A DNA stretch of 64,000 nucleotides from Clostridia bacterium (GTDB taxonomy: Bacteria > Bacillota > Clostridia > Christensenellales > Aristaeellaceae). Location of the stretch: positions 102,482 to 166,481 of the forward strand of contig JAFSKN010000016.1 of assembly GCA_017448975.1 (NCBI GenBank). The letters run 5' to 3'. Shown here in pieces: positions 17,244 through 27,400 of this stretch (position 1 is the stretch's first letter; each line of letters opens with the position of its first letter). The position numbers were made by a program, and so were the translations under genes. Under the pieces are notes generated by a model. It did no database searches and had not been told where the DNA came from. It worked only from the letters and a program-made list of their open reading frames with translations.

Positions 17244-17259
17244 GTTGGAGGTGGACCGT

Positions 17260-17505
17260 ATGATGCAGGTGAATATTCTTGAAGCGAAAACGGATTTTTC
17301 CAAGCTGATCCGCCTGCTGGAAACCAAACGGGAGGATTGCATCACTGTTGCGAGAAACGGAAAGCCGGTGGCAAAAATCACGCTGATTCAAGAAACGCCC
17401 GTTTCCAAAAGAATCGGCGTCGCCAAGGGAAAATTCAGCGTAAAAGGCGATTTTGACGAGGGCAATCAGGAAATTGCGGATATGCTTACGGGAGGCGCGT
17501 TATGA
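17260..17505 (+). CDS. Type II antitoxin, Phd/YefM family
   Basis: The 81-residue protein starts MMQVNILEAKTDFSKLI and continues CITVARNGKPVAKI. This is the classic Phd/YefM beta-alpha fold with the RNGKPVA signature. The C-terminal half (residues about 50-81) is charged and probably disordered until bound to the toxin. It should neutralise the PIN toxin encoded next and autorepress with it. ATG 17260 has GGAGG 8 bp upstream; an in-frame TTG at 17245 has no such site. Its stop overlaps the toxin start (ATGA). A second ATG follows at once, so a start one codon later is equally possible. Confidence 0.93.
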   Translation: MMQVNILEAKTDFSKLIRLLETKREDCITVARNGKPVAKITLIQETPVSKRIGVAKGKFSVKGDFDEGNQEIADMLTGGAL

Positions 17506-17906
17506 ATCTGCTTCTTGATACGCATATTGCCATTTGGGCGATGAACGACGATCCCGCTTTATCCGCGAAGGCAAGAGAATTGATCCTTGACCCGGACAAT
17601 ACCATTTATTACAGCGCCGTTTCCGTGTGGGAGGTGCTGCTCAAGCATGCCTCGAGGCCGGAGGACATCCCCTTTAATGAAAAGGATTTTTCAGCGGCCT
17701 GCAAGGAAGCTGGATTCATTCCGCTTGGCCTGACGGATAAGCATATGCTCGCCGTAAGCACGTTGACCCGTCCCGATGCCTGCAAAGCGCATAACGATCC
17801 GTTCGACAGGCTGTTGCTTGCTCAGGCAAAGGTAGAAAACTTTTCGTTTCTGACTCATGACGAACAGATTCCTGATTATCAGGAAAAATGTATCATTCCG
17901 GTATAA
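17502..17906 (+). CDS. PIN-domain toxin (VapC-like ribonuclease)
   Basis: The 134-residue PIN protein carries the four acidic residues expected for metal-dependent RNase activity: Asp in LLLDTHIAIWAM, Glu in SVWEVLLK, Asp in HNDPFDRLLLAQA and Asp in FLTHDEQIPDY. Family members paired with Phd antitoxins cut tRNA or other RNA and arrest growth. It overlaps the antitoxin stop by 4 bp, so translation is coupled. All catalytic positions appear intact, so the pair looks functional. It sits beside the restriction-modification system, two addiction-type modules separated by one flippase gene. Confidence 0.93.
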   Translation: MNLLLDTHIAIWAMNDDPALSAKARELILDPDNTIYYSAVSVWEVLLKHASRPEDIPFNEKDFSAACKEAGFIPLGLTDKHMLAVSTLTRPDACKAHNDPFDRLLLAQAKVENFSFLTHDEQIPDYQEKCIIPV

Positions 17907-20477: not shown

Positions 20478-20723
20478 TTATTTTTTCGTCATGGCGCTTT
20501 TTACCTGCACGCCGGGCACGTTGCCCAGCTTGCCGGTGAGCGCGCCCACCTGAATATCATCCCCCCGGATCAGCAAACCGATCACGGCGATGTTCCGCTC
20601 ATGATCCGGCACGCCGATGCGGCCGGTCACGATTTCCTGATGCTGGGAAATGATTTGGTTCACCCGGGCGGTCTGGTCCAGGTCGTCGATCACGATGCCG
20701 ATGAAGCCGATGCGTTCTTCCAT
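20478..20723 (-). CDS. TM1266-family putative regulator of the iron-only hydrogenase system
   Basis: The 81-residue protein (MEERIGFIGIVIDDLDQ, then VTGRIGVPDHERNIAVIGLL, and ALTGKLGNVPGVQVKSAM) matches the TM1266/NikR-C-like ferredoxin-fold family often encoded near hydrogenase maturation genes. The fold resembles ACT and NikR ligand-sensing domains, so ligand sensing is plausible, but no DNA-binding domain is present. ATG 20723 has AAAGGAAG upstream. The frame is open further 5', but that part is the transcribed leader with its own terminator. It lies 18 bp before the substrate-binding protein gene and must be co-transcribed. No hydrogenase genes are in view. Confidence 0.85.
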   Translation of the reverse strand: MEERIGFIGIVIDDLDQTARVNQIISQHQEIVTGRIGVPDHERNIAVIGLLIRGDDIQVGALTGKLGNVPGVQVKSAMTKK

Positions 20724-20744
20724 GTTTTTCGCTTCCTTTCTCCC

Positions 20745-20903
20745 AAAAAGAAAAGCATGACAGAAAATGCCATGCGTCCGATTCCAGCTGTTTTGCCTCC
20801 TTTCGCTCTCGGGCCCGGACGCGTCCCTGCCCTCAAGGGAAACTGTTTTTTCGTCCCGTCCGCTGGCCCGTATGCAATGCACTAAGGTTCGCGTTCGCCG
20901 GAC
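20745..20903 (-). ncRNA. Structured 5' leader with intrinsic terminator (candidate riboswitch/attenuator)
   Basis: Between the promoter and the TM1266-like gene lies a roughly 180-nt leader. On the minus strand it ends in a hairpin GCATGGCA/TGTCATGC followed by TTTTCTTTTT (20775-20745), an intrinsic terminator just upstream of the ribosome site. A 7-bp perfect stem GCGTCCG/CGGACGC (20822-20816 with 20780-20774) overlaps the terminator by two bases. The 5' end (GTCCG, 20903-20899) can pair with CGGAC (20862-20858). I could not match it to TPP, guanidine-I, Moco, THF or c-di-GMP consensus from memory. Confidence 0.6.
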
Positions 20904-20909
20904 AGGGCT

Positions 20910-20938
20910 ATTATACACAACGGAACCGGTTCAGTCAA
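20910..20938 (-). promoter_or_regulatory. Promoter of the leader/TM1266/substrate-binding protein operon
   Basis: On the minus strand TTGACT (20938-20933), 17 bp, TATAAT (20915-20910). It is back to back with the plus-strand promoter at 20956. Confidence 0.85.
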
Positions 20939-20955: not shown

Positions 20956-20984
20956 TTGTCATCCTGGAGCGATTTGGGTATAAT
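20956..20984 (+). promoter_or_regulatory. Promoter of the VanW-family gene
   Basis: TTGTCA (20956-20961), 17 bp, TATAAT (20979-20984), 55 bp before the start codon. Confidence 0.8.
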
Positions 20985-21039
20985 AAACAGGGAAGAAGAT
21001 AAGACGCTTCCTGAACATACGAACGAGGTTGAACGCCCG

Positions 21040-22017
21040 ATGAAAATGATCCGGACAAGCTGTTTGCTGCTGATCACGCTGCTTTTTTTCCCCGTCTCCT
21101 GCCATGCCTGGGGAGCGGAGAAGAACGAGGCCATGTTTGAGGCCCTGGCGTCGTGCGATTTTCATGCCCGCAGGGAGCCGGAAGCCAACTACCGGGTGGT
21201 GGAGGTGCCGGAAGGCGCCAGGGTGAAGGTGTTCGGCGAGCAGGACGGCTGGTATTGGATCTGGTACAAAAATAACATGGGCTGGGCCAAGAAGGAATGG
21301 CTGTGGGCCTTCCGTTCCCTGAACGCCGCGAAATATACCATTCCCGGCTACGAGCCGGAAACGGGCGCGGTCACGCTGGGGGAAACCCAATGGATCAGCA
21401 CGGAAAATTTCAGCGGCGTAGAGGCCGCGCCGGGCACTGTCCTGACCGCGCAGGCCGCCGATACGGCGTACACCCTGCGGCTGTGGCGGGGGAAAAAAAC
21501 CCTTGCGCGGTCCGCCGGGGAATGGACGCCCTTCACTTCCTGGCAGGACGCCCGGCCCGGGGATTTGATCGGCGGCTTTACCACGTATTACGATCTGCTT
21601 TTAGGCGAGCCCCTGCACGCGGAGCGGCAGCACAATATCGCCTTGGGCTGCTCGCTTTTGAACGGGACGACGGTGCAGCCGGGTGAACGTTTTTCCTTTA
21701 ATGCCCGGTGCGGCCCGTATAAATTTGAAAAAGGGTATAAGCGGGCCCCCAACGTGAGCGAAACGGGCGCGGGTTATGGCGGCGGCGTGTGCCAGGTGAC
21801 GACCACGCTGTATAACGCGGTGATGGGCCTGCCGCTGCAAATCACGGAATGGTCGCCCCACGGGAGCAAAGGCGTGCCCTATGTCCCCGTTGCCCTGGAC
21901 GCCTCGGTGTGGAAAACCGGCGATTTTCGTTTTATCAACACTCTGGATTACCCCATCCGCATCTGGGCCCAGCCCCAGAGCGGCGTGATCACGGTGCTGA
22001 TTTACCGGGCGCTTTAA
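21040..22017 (+). CDS. Secreted VanW-family protein with an N-terminal SH3-like segment
   Basis: The 325-residue protein has a signal peptide (MKMIRTSCLLLITLLFFPVS, cleaved before about residue 24). It then has an SH3b-like stretch (YRVVEVPEGARVKVFGEQDG, then WYWIWYKNNMGWAKKEWL) and the VanW domain from about residue 195 (VQPGERFSFNARCGPYKFEKG, then GYGGGVCQVTTTLYNAVM). VanW domains are widespread in Bacillota and probably bind or modify wall or surface components. The name comes from a vancomycin cluster and is not evidence of resistance. The ribosome site is weak (GAGG with 11-bp spacing). The stop codon lies within the left end of a palindromic repeat, so that element may have replaced the natural 3' flank. 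Confidence 0.88.
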   Translation: MKMIRTSCLLLITLLFFPVSCHAWGAEKNEAMFEALASCDFHARREPEANYRVVEVPEGARVKVFGEQDGWYWIWYKNNMGWAKKEWLWAFRSLNAAKYTIPGYEPETGAVTLGETQWISTENFSGVEAAPGTVLTAQAADTAYTLRLWRGKKTLARSAGEWTPFTSWQDARPGDLIGGFTTYYDLLLGEPLHAERQHNIALGCSLLNGTTVQPGERFSFNARCGPYKFEKGYKRAPNVSETGAGYGGGVCQVTTTLYNAVMGLPLQITEWSPHGSKGVPYVPVALDASVWKTGDFRFINTLDYPIRIWAQPQSGVITVLIYRAL

Positions 22018-26355: not shown

Positions 26356-27060
26356 TCAGTCGGGCAGCCGACCGTCATACATAATGGCCAGTTCGCCGTA
26401 AACCTTACCCCAGTTGTGGATCGGCATTGTCCATTTCTTCGTAGCTTCAAACGTGGAAAGATAAAGTGCCTTCAGCAAGGCAGTGTCGCTGGGAAACACG
26501 CTGCGCTGGCTGTTCAGCCGACGGTACGTGGAATTCAGGCTTTCAATTGCATTGGTGGTGTAGATCACTGTCCGCACATCCTTGGAGAACTTGAAGATCG
26601 GGCTGACAGCGTCCCAGTTGTCGTACCAGCGCTTCATGGCTCGGGGATATTTCTCCTGCCATTTCTCTGTGACTTCATCCAGCGCTTCCCGGCCTTCCTG
26701 CTCGGACGGCGCGTTGTAGATCATTTTCAGGTCATTGGCGAATGCCTTCCGGTCCTTGTCCGACACATATTTCAGCGTGTTGCGTACCTGGTGGACAATG
26801 CAGCGTTGGGATTCAGTCTGGGGATACGCGGCGGCGATATACCCGTTCCGGGCGTCGTCGCTGTCGGAACGCTCGGACTTCTCATACCCCAGGTGCTCAT
26901 CCATCTCTGCTTCCATCATTTCCTTGATGGTGCCGCCTGACAGATCTTTCAGCGCTTCCTGTATGTCCGCGGCGCTTTCGATGTTGTATTCCTGCAGCAA
27001 TCCCTGGATGATGTTCCGTTTCCCTTCCGTCATTGGTCCCGGTTTGTAATACAGTGCCAT
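26356..27060 (-). pseudogene. IS256-family (mutator) transposase with deleted catalytic core
   Basis: The 234-residue frame begins MALYYKPGPMTEGKRNII, has EAEMDEHLGYEKSERSDSDD, then jumps from DARNGY straight to IAAAYPQTESQRCIVHQVR and continues to the C-terminus (TTNAIESLNSTYRRLNSQRS). In intact IS256 transposases about 400 residues long, the stretch between these points carries the first two catalytic Asp residues. Only the Glu (NAIES) remains here. The junction near 26840 keeps the frame, so a clean internal deletion rather than gradual decay is inferred. It cannot transpose itself. An ATG upstream at 27078 is possible but family starts favour 27060. Confidence 0.88.
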
Positions 27061-27400
27061 TTTCGTTGATATGACCAAAAATGCCCAGGATAAGATTATC
27101 CGCCGGGATGAATTGGGCCTATAACAGCAGGCTGCTCAAAGTGAATACGATTATATCCAACCACCATATTCAGCGCGAAAATTCGGAGAATCCGATGGCG
27201 AGGATGAAAAGTTTTGTTTCAATAAATTCGGAGTAAAAAACATAAAATTACGGATAATTAATAGTAAAAATAAAGTAAATGGTAAAAAAGAGGCAAATAC
27301 ACACAAAAAATGCGTTTTTTACATTGAAAAACAATAGGGAAAATGTTTTAATATAAGTGAAACAGTGCTTGAATAATTCGAGGAAAGGGGAAAAGAACCT
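27061..27400 (+). promoter_or_regulatory. AT-rich intergenic region with probable promoter of the glycan locus
   Basis: I see no gene in this 340-bp stretch. It is strongly AT-rich after 27170 and contains AATTCGGAG twice (near 27183 and 27225). The best promoter candidate is TTGAAA (27324-27329) with TAATAT (27349-27354) at a long 19-bp spacing, about 45 bp before the first gene. An operator for the ArsR-type regulator of this locus would be expected here but none is obvious. Confidence 0.4.

Follow-up and report, generated by a model that had tools for sequence, protein, structure and literature searches.

The leader that precedes a TM1266-family regulator gene in the window (the whole stretch of 64,000 nucleotides analyzed here, from contig JAFSKN010000016.1 of a Clostridia bacterium) was found to contain a conserved, folded and covarying RNA, for which the comparison of leaders argues strongly, and this RNA is almost certainly a transcriptional attenuator. 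It belongs to the known kind of leader attenuators and switches. The family itself seems not to have been described before, and its proposed relay through a short open reading frame (ORF) would be uncommon. In the full explanation put forward here, to which we give about an even chance, the terminator of the TM1266-leader RNA would be countered in two ways and TM1266 would set the state of the RNA.

The features of the locus are listed in Table 1. The promoter agrees with the consensus at 11 of 12 bases, and a scan of 2.8 kb gave two promoter-like sites, where shuffled sequence averaged 0.7; TATAAT was present upstream of 24/24 leaders of the genus. The leader of ~180 nt runs on the minus strand from ~20904, a 5' end inferred from the promoter position, to the TM1266 ATG at 20723. 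Terminator-like sites alone were not rare in the scanned region (six seen, 3.8 expected). The antiterminator-like stem shares two bases with the terminator, and the competing duplex was calculated at -12.0 kcal/mol, compared with -9.4 for the terminator or -3.4 kcal/mol when the two shared pairs are subtracted. The consensus promoter, the ~180-nt leader and the intrinsic terminator of the preliminary description were thus all located; the perfect 7-bp stem that it had placed over the terminator by two bases pairs exactly, with competing energies; and its reading of the locus as a "transcriptional riboswitch or attenuator" agrees with a conserved covarying RNA that has a terminator and a competing stem. 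The window sequence by itself gave modest support for a leader RNA. Its single-sequence fold had a z-score of -1.69, with 12 of 200 shuffles folding equally well or better, and the pairing of the apex with downstream sequence was mostly weak against shuffles when leaders were taken one by one. The leader RNA stands above chance because all 24 genus leaders share the core and the stem occurs in 19 of them, exactly those without an ORF.

Table 1. Features of the TM1266 locus, in window positions
Feature	Position	Strand	Details
Sigma-70-type promoter	20910..20938	minus	TTGACT - 17 nt - TATAAT
Conserved leader RNA, whole domain	20794..20906	minus	matched by models R1 and R2
5' domain	20852..20904	minus	P1 (20904-20900 with 20856-20852), 2-bp step (20892-20891 with 20863-20862), hairpin P2 (20887-20879 with 20875-20867); internal loop type CC-nAG-YG / CR-UGA-GG; pair counts in the text
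P3 hairpin	20801..20842	minus	20842-20829 with 20814-20801, UUGA/GAGA internal loop; apical stem 20826-20824 with 20819-20817
AAAGGAGG at P3 3' foot	20796..20803	minus	RAAGGAGG in 24/24 genus leaders
Antiterminator-like stem	20774..20822	minus	20822-20816 (GCGUCCG) with 20780-20774 (CGGACGC), exact 7 bp
Intrinsic terminator	20745..20775	minus	8-bp stem 20775-20755, T-tract to 20745; letters GCAUGGCAUUUUCUGUCAUGC + TTTTCTTTTT
TM1266-family regulator, 81 aa	20478..20723	minus	TIGR03959 91.1 bits (cut-off 60.8); PF21699 84.9 (cut-off 27)
NMT1/SsuA-like substrate-binding protein, 320 aa	19497..20459	minus	PF09084 35.9 bits (cut-off 20.5)

The regulator encoded in the window is a member of the TM1266 family, whose profile is matched by PDB entry 2nzc at E 1.2e-17. 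The binding protein matched PDB entry 3hn0 at E 3.1e-13, and its assignment as an aliphatic sulfonate binding protein (TIGR01728) was rejected at 52.8 bits, under the cut-off of 163.5. Elsewhere in the window, the stretch 20956-22017 contains a second promoter-like site (20956-20984, plus strand), which adjoins the TM1266 promoter, points away from it and precedes a divergent gene with a VanW domain (PF04294, 124.6 bits). By eye, two neighboring small ORFs at 17245-17906 resemble an antitoxin of the Phd type and a toxin with a PIN domain, and an ORF at 26356-27078 on the minus strand resembles a mutator-type transposase.

The fold was defined with model R1, trained on the 24 genus leaders only, and model R2; the window leader belongs to the training sets of both. 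Most genus leaders share the core GUUUCCCUUGAGGGCAGGGAYGCGUCCGGGCCCGAGAGCGAAAGGAGGCA, which is conserved far above its flanks. The internal loop of P3 is mostly UUGA/GAGA, or UUGC/AAGA with both sides changed, the exceptions being L009, L044 and L113. In 68 leaders, the outer step pair of the 5' domain was CG in 26, GC in 24, UA in 8, AU in 2 and UG in 2, and was unpaired in 6. The preliminary description had proposed that leaders of homologous operons be collected and tested for covariation. In a fitted alignment of 39 leaders, 91.3% of the cells were paired, double changes occurred in 20 of 28 pairs, and the covariation score was 0.388, compared with 0.144 for shuffled and at most 0.089 for slid alignments. 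In the larger alignment, for which 70 loci were supplied and 68 aligned, 88.9% of the cells were paired, 25 of the 28 pairs showed double changes, and the score was 0.519, compared with 0.172 shuffled and at most 0.124 slid. Fitting to the model favors the model's own pairs (alignments A4 and A8), and the same helices were obtained from the MAFFT alignment A2. The P3 foot is the weakest part of the helices (66% paired in the 68 leaders), with two registers competing. In one locus (L256), a long insert separates P2 from P3, and the leader ORF (MSILLSP) is retained.

The conserved fold is joined to two different arrangements at the terminator. In 19 of the 24 genus leaders, including that of the window, the P3 apex GCGUCC faces GG(A/G)CGC at the terminator and no leader ORF is present. 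The other five have no such pairing and carry an ORF of eight codons, with the peptides MRTYFDGA, MDSYFDGA, MGMYFDGA, MKTKLSGA and MRTSLSGA, so that the two arrangements are mutually exclusive in 24/24 leaders. Taken by itself, the ORF count in the genus, 5 of 23, is one that shuffled sequences also reach (mean 1.75, maximum 6). Outside the genus, a leader ORF was found in 32 of 38 loci, whereas shuffled sequences gave a mean of 2.1 and a maximum of 7 in 500 sets; six of the 38 loci lack it. Among 17 further loci, some of them shared with this named set, 14 carry an ORF when a slightly wider window is allowed. These non-genus ORFs start with ATG or GTG 3-10 nt past the RNA and stop after 7-11 codons, mostly 8; 7-9 codons are typical, and 11 were seen once. 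The peptides have no common sequence beyond small clades. In the relatives, the RAAGGAGG-like P3 foot is the Shine-Dalgarno sequence of the short leader ORF, and the window has no such ORF. The leader ORF appears, from sequence, to end in the terminator: the stop was placed within a terminator arm for 36 of 37 ORFs, under a lenient flag in which the fold is often a hairpin that reaches back into the ORF. Pairing of the foot with the Shine-Dalgarno sequence was scored in 41 of 42 loci (L200 was omitted as a near copy of L199) and had a mean of -4.87 kcal/mol, compared with -2.90 kcal/mol for shuffled sequences, the lowest of 200 shuffled sets being -3.67. In several loci this pairing was no better than in shuffled sequence. 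These results suggest that the pyrimidine tract of the P3 foot can mask the Shine-Dalgarno sequence, with exceptions among the loci.

The distribution of the RNA was compared with that of TM1266. Within the genus, TM1266 was found in 24 of 29 genomes and the leader RNA at all 24 of those loci; no RNA match was found in the five genomes without TM1266. When 19 TM1266 loci of other genera were searched with R1 (filters off), the top match was the TM1266 leader in 19/19, at E 3e-14 to 0.087, the best chance match being 0.13; 18 of these leaders had been inspected by eye beforehand, and that of L093 was found by the model. A genome collection of 84,980 species was scanned with a TM1266 alignment and the best 80 of 96 relatives were taken; many of these are MAGs from the gut that carry the labels Clostridia, Clostridiales or Christensenellaceae. 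Of these best 80, 62 were matched by R2 at E<=1, and 61 matches were at E<=6e-4 (38 from R2 training places, 23 new). All 61 lie upstream of TM1266 on the same strand, and no R2 match at E<=6e-4 was found elsewhere in 460 kb of the relatives' loci. Among the TM1266 matches listed for 308 family genomes, 77 loci scored at least 89.5 bits and the others at most 74.6. The collection of homologous leaders showed the RNA at 77/77 of the high-scoring loci, which comprise 58 loci of the main scan, G053 and G084, and 17/17 further loci (RNA match at E 5e-8 to 0.036). In the low-scoring class, sampled at 11 family loci, no R2 match was below E 0.2, and 10 of the 11 loci continue with HydE or HydF above curated cut-offs.

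Matches away from TM1266 were few. Only one of 59 family genomes had an RNA match without TM1266, inside a gene resembling tRNA-dihydrouridine synthase (dus), and besides this match no second RNA site was found elsewhere in the family genomes. An order-wide search matched 13 of 396 genomes, and the three matches outside the family (L131, L132 and L133), which by eye fall within or close to other genes, TM1266 being absent, were judged to be chance and rejected. The alternative that the RNA is tied to the binding protein or the transporter was likewise rejected: none of the 42 binding-protein loci that lack TM1266 in the stretch examined has the RNA. Four of these 42 (L047, L048, L086 and L122) are uninformative, with less than 50 nt of sequence upstream, which leaves 38 with usable upstream sequence, 32 of them with a permease; genomes G060 and G184, which have such short-upstream loci, carry the RNA and TM1266 on another contig. 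Because binding-protein loci without TM1266 lack the RNA, the RNA follows TM1266 and not the transporter. The outgroup TM1266 locus L209, with matches at E 0.0038 and 0.00082, is a putative further case, in which the P2 loop letters are not kept. In two Christensenellaceae MAGs (L190 and L197), TM1266 is followed by an ORF resembling an ECF S component, and the leader has a P3-like UUGACGCC...GGC-AGAGA and a four-codon ORF (MRSP), under model significance. Paralogous binding proteins in L037, L040 and L041 directly follow, by eye, a deoC-type aldolase-like sequence and not TM1266.

The genes after TM1266 vary. A permease follows the binding protein in 31 of the 38 RNA loci of the named set outside the genus and in 0 of 23 genus loci; an ATPase then follows in the loci inspected, with families assigned for one locus. 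The binding protein called an orphan in the preliminary description is one within this genus, and most RNA loci outside it have the permease. In genus g15 (four loci), the RNA and TM1266 are kept together and an ECF S-component-like protein comes next instead; two of the four match PF12822 above the cut-off and two are just under it. These importers, NMT1-type and ECF, give a hint of a vitamin-like compound or a cofactor precursor. HydG was found in none of the 29 genus genomes searched, which are 65-96% complete; in the control, the search gave a signal in 7 of 14 genomes and exceeded the cut-off in 1. On this HydG search, a tie of the RNA to hydrogenase genes within the genus was rejected. 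The association of TM1266 with hydrogenase systems given in the preliminary description was thus not seen in this genus, but it appears together with a short core motif in other families.

This short core, with the layout CCUGA-stem-RA-stem...RA-stem-AAAGG, was recognized by eye in 14 of 29 TM1266 leaders of other families and in 2 of 11 low-scoring family leaders. Model R3, built from these 16 leaders, has 41 nt and 6 pairs; the pairs covary (0.531, compared with 0.312 shuffled and 0.254 slid), and the number of further pair types was not above shuffles. On 40 unseen TM1266 loci (filters off), R3 gave 14 matches at E<0.05, all on the TM1266 strand and 73-218 nt upstream, while matches above E 0.056 were mixed and some were on the wrong strand. 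Of 50 loci searched with default filters, 43 do not belong to the high-scoring family class, and one of these 43 gave a TM1266-leader match at E<=0.05. In 24 genomes, chosen for having TM1266, R3 found 31 places at E<=0.05: 14 training leaders, 6 previously matched, 1 second TM1266 leader, 6 ahead of HydF, HydG or an ABC permease, 3 coding-like and 1 without retrieved sequence. The core thus lies upstream of HydF (four genomes), HydG (one genome) and an ABC permease with an ATPase (one genome). In Fuchsiella alkaliacetigena it lies upstream of HydG then HydE, divergent from TM1266, and in Syntrophomonas zehnderi upstream of both TM1266 (E 0.014) and HydG (E 0.0029). The matches ahead of these genes, including HydG in Fuchsiella and Syntrophomonas, ranged from E 3.5e-4 to 0.006, and the models only weakly identify the core with the window RNA. 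In G678, which lacks TM1266 at E<=1e-18, HydG has the core ahead of it, and the 3' end of the core resembles the HydG Shine-Dalgarno sequence.

The core of the other families is perhaps the same element as the window P3. The shared layout argues for it, as do the five best R2 matches in 90 kb of other-family TM1266 loci, all of which are TM1266 leaders; these matches had E values of 0.0064 to 0.34, and 7 of 10 matches up to E 2 fell on TM1266 leaders. Because R3 with default filters matched 0 of 7 family leaders, the modeled link between the core and the window RNA is weak. Two further observations concern the core. At L371 it lies upstream of an ABC permease and ATPase, with no TM1266 in the stretch examined, and so offers a lead to the importer's role; the best NCBIfam matches there, TauC and SsuC, are under their cut-offs. 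In L329, L338, L341, L343 and L373, a second copy-like hairpin (UUCUGAAAUACAUGAGGG...AAGGCG) follows the core, and its sequence suggests tandem elements before TM1266.

The leaders were compared with the 4227 families of Rfam 15, using covariance models at the gathering score. The window leader had no match at E<=10. At the gathering score, no match lay over the leaders of 20 genus loci (T-box and microRNA matches were elsewhere), 11 family loci (a lncRNA match of E 1.2 overlaps the L053 leader), 19 outgroup loci, 15 other-family loci (an sRNA match of E 0.37 overlaps the L290 leader) or 10 more loci (an SRP RNA was elsewhere). Separately, a T-box leader in L008 (2059-2264) scored 80.5 bits, just below its gathering score of 93. 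In the literature searched, chiefly openly accessible papers, no description of such an RNA was found. The preliminary description had matched the leader to no known class; this was borne out, since no Rfam family reached its cut-off on the leaders, and the Rfam comparison proposed with it found no class that would remove the novelty.

Several other explanations of the leader were weighed. That the complementarity arose by chance at an ordinary terminated leader, with conservation imposed by the promoter or by coding, is hardly credible. The z-score of the window fold and the fact that the window TM1266 frame is open through the leader would suit it, but the compensatory double changes and the position conserved in 77/77 loci speak against it, and because the length of this open frame ranges from 81 to 191 aa among genus members (the split G020 aside), no upstream coding frame is kept. 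It is very improbable that a known riboswitch class has diverged past the sensitivity of the search: NMT1/THI5-type importers are often controlled by known riboswitch classes, but no Rfam family matched any searched leader at the gathering score. Equally remote is a ribosome-stalling leader-peptide attenuator, in which the ORF codons would serve to sense a charged tRNA or an antibiotic. The ORFs of 7-9 codons, with a strong Shine-Dalgarno sequence before the terminator (32/38 non-genus and 5/23 genus loci), would fit such a device, but the peptides are alike only in small clades, and the upstream fold is still conserved in the 19 ORF-less genus leaders. A trp- or erm-type attenuator was rejected, there being no conserved control codons or peptide and no ORF in the window.

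A more serious contender, to which we assign somewhat less than an even chance, is a new class of riboswitch in the strict, small-molecule sense, in which the RNA alone would sense a cofactor-related metabolite and TM1266 would merely be regulated. The complex conserved fold with fixed internal-loop letters points this way, as does the core upstream of several operons elsewhere (TM1266, HydG, HydF, and ABC permease with ATPase), and importers are typical riboswitch targets. The leader has an aptamer-like covarying domain and, by sequence and energy, a competing expression platform. On the other hand, within the family the RNA was not found apart from TM1266, even when the transporter type differs, and the choice of genomes with TM1266 for the core search leaves the regulon compatible with a TM1266 effector. 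Because the RNA co-occurs so tightly with TM1266, a protein-binding attenuator seems at least as likely as a strict ligand-binding riboswitch. A PyrR-like layout is supported by the place of TM1266 ahead of the other operon genes and by the core that stands before both TM1266 and HydG in Syntrophomonas. Against TM1266 as effector, the core also lies, riboswitch-like, upstream of HydF, HydG and an ABC permease that do not adjoin TM1266, and upstream of HydG in G678, where TM1266 was not found at E<=1e-18. A riboswitch would account equally well for a core distributed over several operons, and the co-occurrence with TM1266 could reflect an RNA and a protein serving one pathway. By analogy with PyrR, our preference is for TM1266 over a small molecule as the effector, a role for which the case from sequence is evenly balanced.

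In the preferred explanation, with TM1266 as effector, closed P3 would let the terminator form, so that transcription stops; in the ORF types, the pyrimidine foot of P3 would mask the Shine-Dalgarno sequence. In the opposite state, base pairing between the P3 apex and the terminator's 5' arm would let transcription continue in window-type leaders, whereas in ORF-type leaders a ribosome translating the leader ORF would cross the terminator arm and thereby allow read-through. Read-through would reach TM1266 and the importer genes. Antitermination in the window may be partial, since no more than two bases of the terminator fall within the competing stem. The least certain step is that TM1266, as a PyrR-like autogenous RNA-binding regulator carrying a metabolic signal, would set the state; both the direction of switching and the effector are inferred. 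A broader reading extends this proposal: TM1266 would be a ligand-responsive RNA-binding attenuation regulator, forming with the RNA a class-wide regulon for [FeFe]-hydrogenase maturation (HydG, HydF and HydE) and NMT1-type ABC or ECF importers of a cofactor precursor, and one family would have gained the 5' domain and would switch an eight-codon ORF that blocks the terminator. We hold this reading only tentatively, and somewhat more so than at first, because R3 missed the family leaders and most loci under default filters.

We know of no report on the function of TM1266. In the PyrR-controlled pyr attenuators of Bacillus, a small regulator is encoded first in the operon, a hairpin lies ahead and the leader fold decides read-through. 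TM1266 is likewise encoded first and preceded by a conserved hairpin, and in one case the core motif, perhaps the same hairpin, also precedes the next gene; the RNA and protein families differ, however, many members here would relay through a short ORF, and binding by TM1266 is putative. Transcription-terminating riboswitches share with the leader a conserved aptamer-like domain, a competing stem and a terminator ahead of transporter genes, but no Rfam class matches and the presence of the RNA here follows a protein gene. The family name refers to a hydrogenase system, whereas no HydG was found in this genus. In the B12 riboswitch before ppe2 of Mycobacterium tuberculosis, the upstream ORF is translated and the relay is translational reinitiation; the structured element there masks the Shine-Dalgarno sequence of a signal-relaying short ORF (PMC11260477). 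Similar masking is proposed for the TM1266 leader, but the RNAs are unrelated, and the TM1266-leader ORF would instead prevent an intrinsic terminator. Among upstream ORF motifs, odc1, uORFC-8-2 and uORFC-6-1 combine a conserved RNA fold with a short ORF, and odc1 resembles the TM1266 leader in having its ribosome site within a stem; these motifs belong to other taxa and genes, and the odc1 peptide is conserved whereas the TM1266-leader peptide is not (PMC8632094).

These results provide a concrete candidate RNA partner for TM1266, a family with a solved structure and a hydrogenase label, and suggest that one RNA-based signal may govern both the genes for H-cluster assembly and certain importers. 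The leaders also form a natural set in which one fold is joined to either an antiterminator stem or a tiny ORF, and so offer material on the evolution of expression platforms. If the effector is in truth a small molecule, the RNA would constitute a new riboswitch class.
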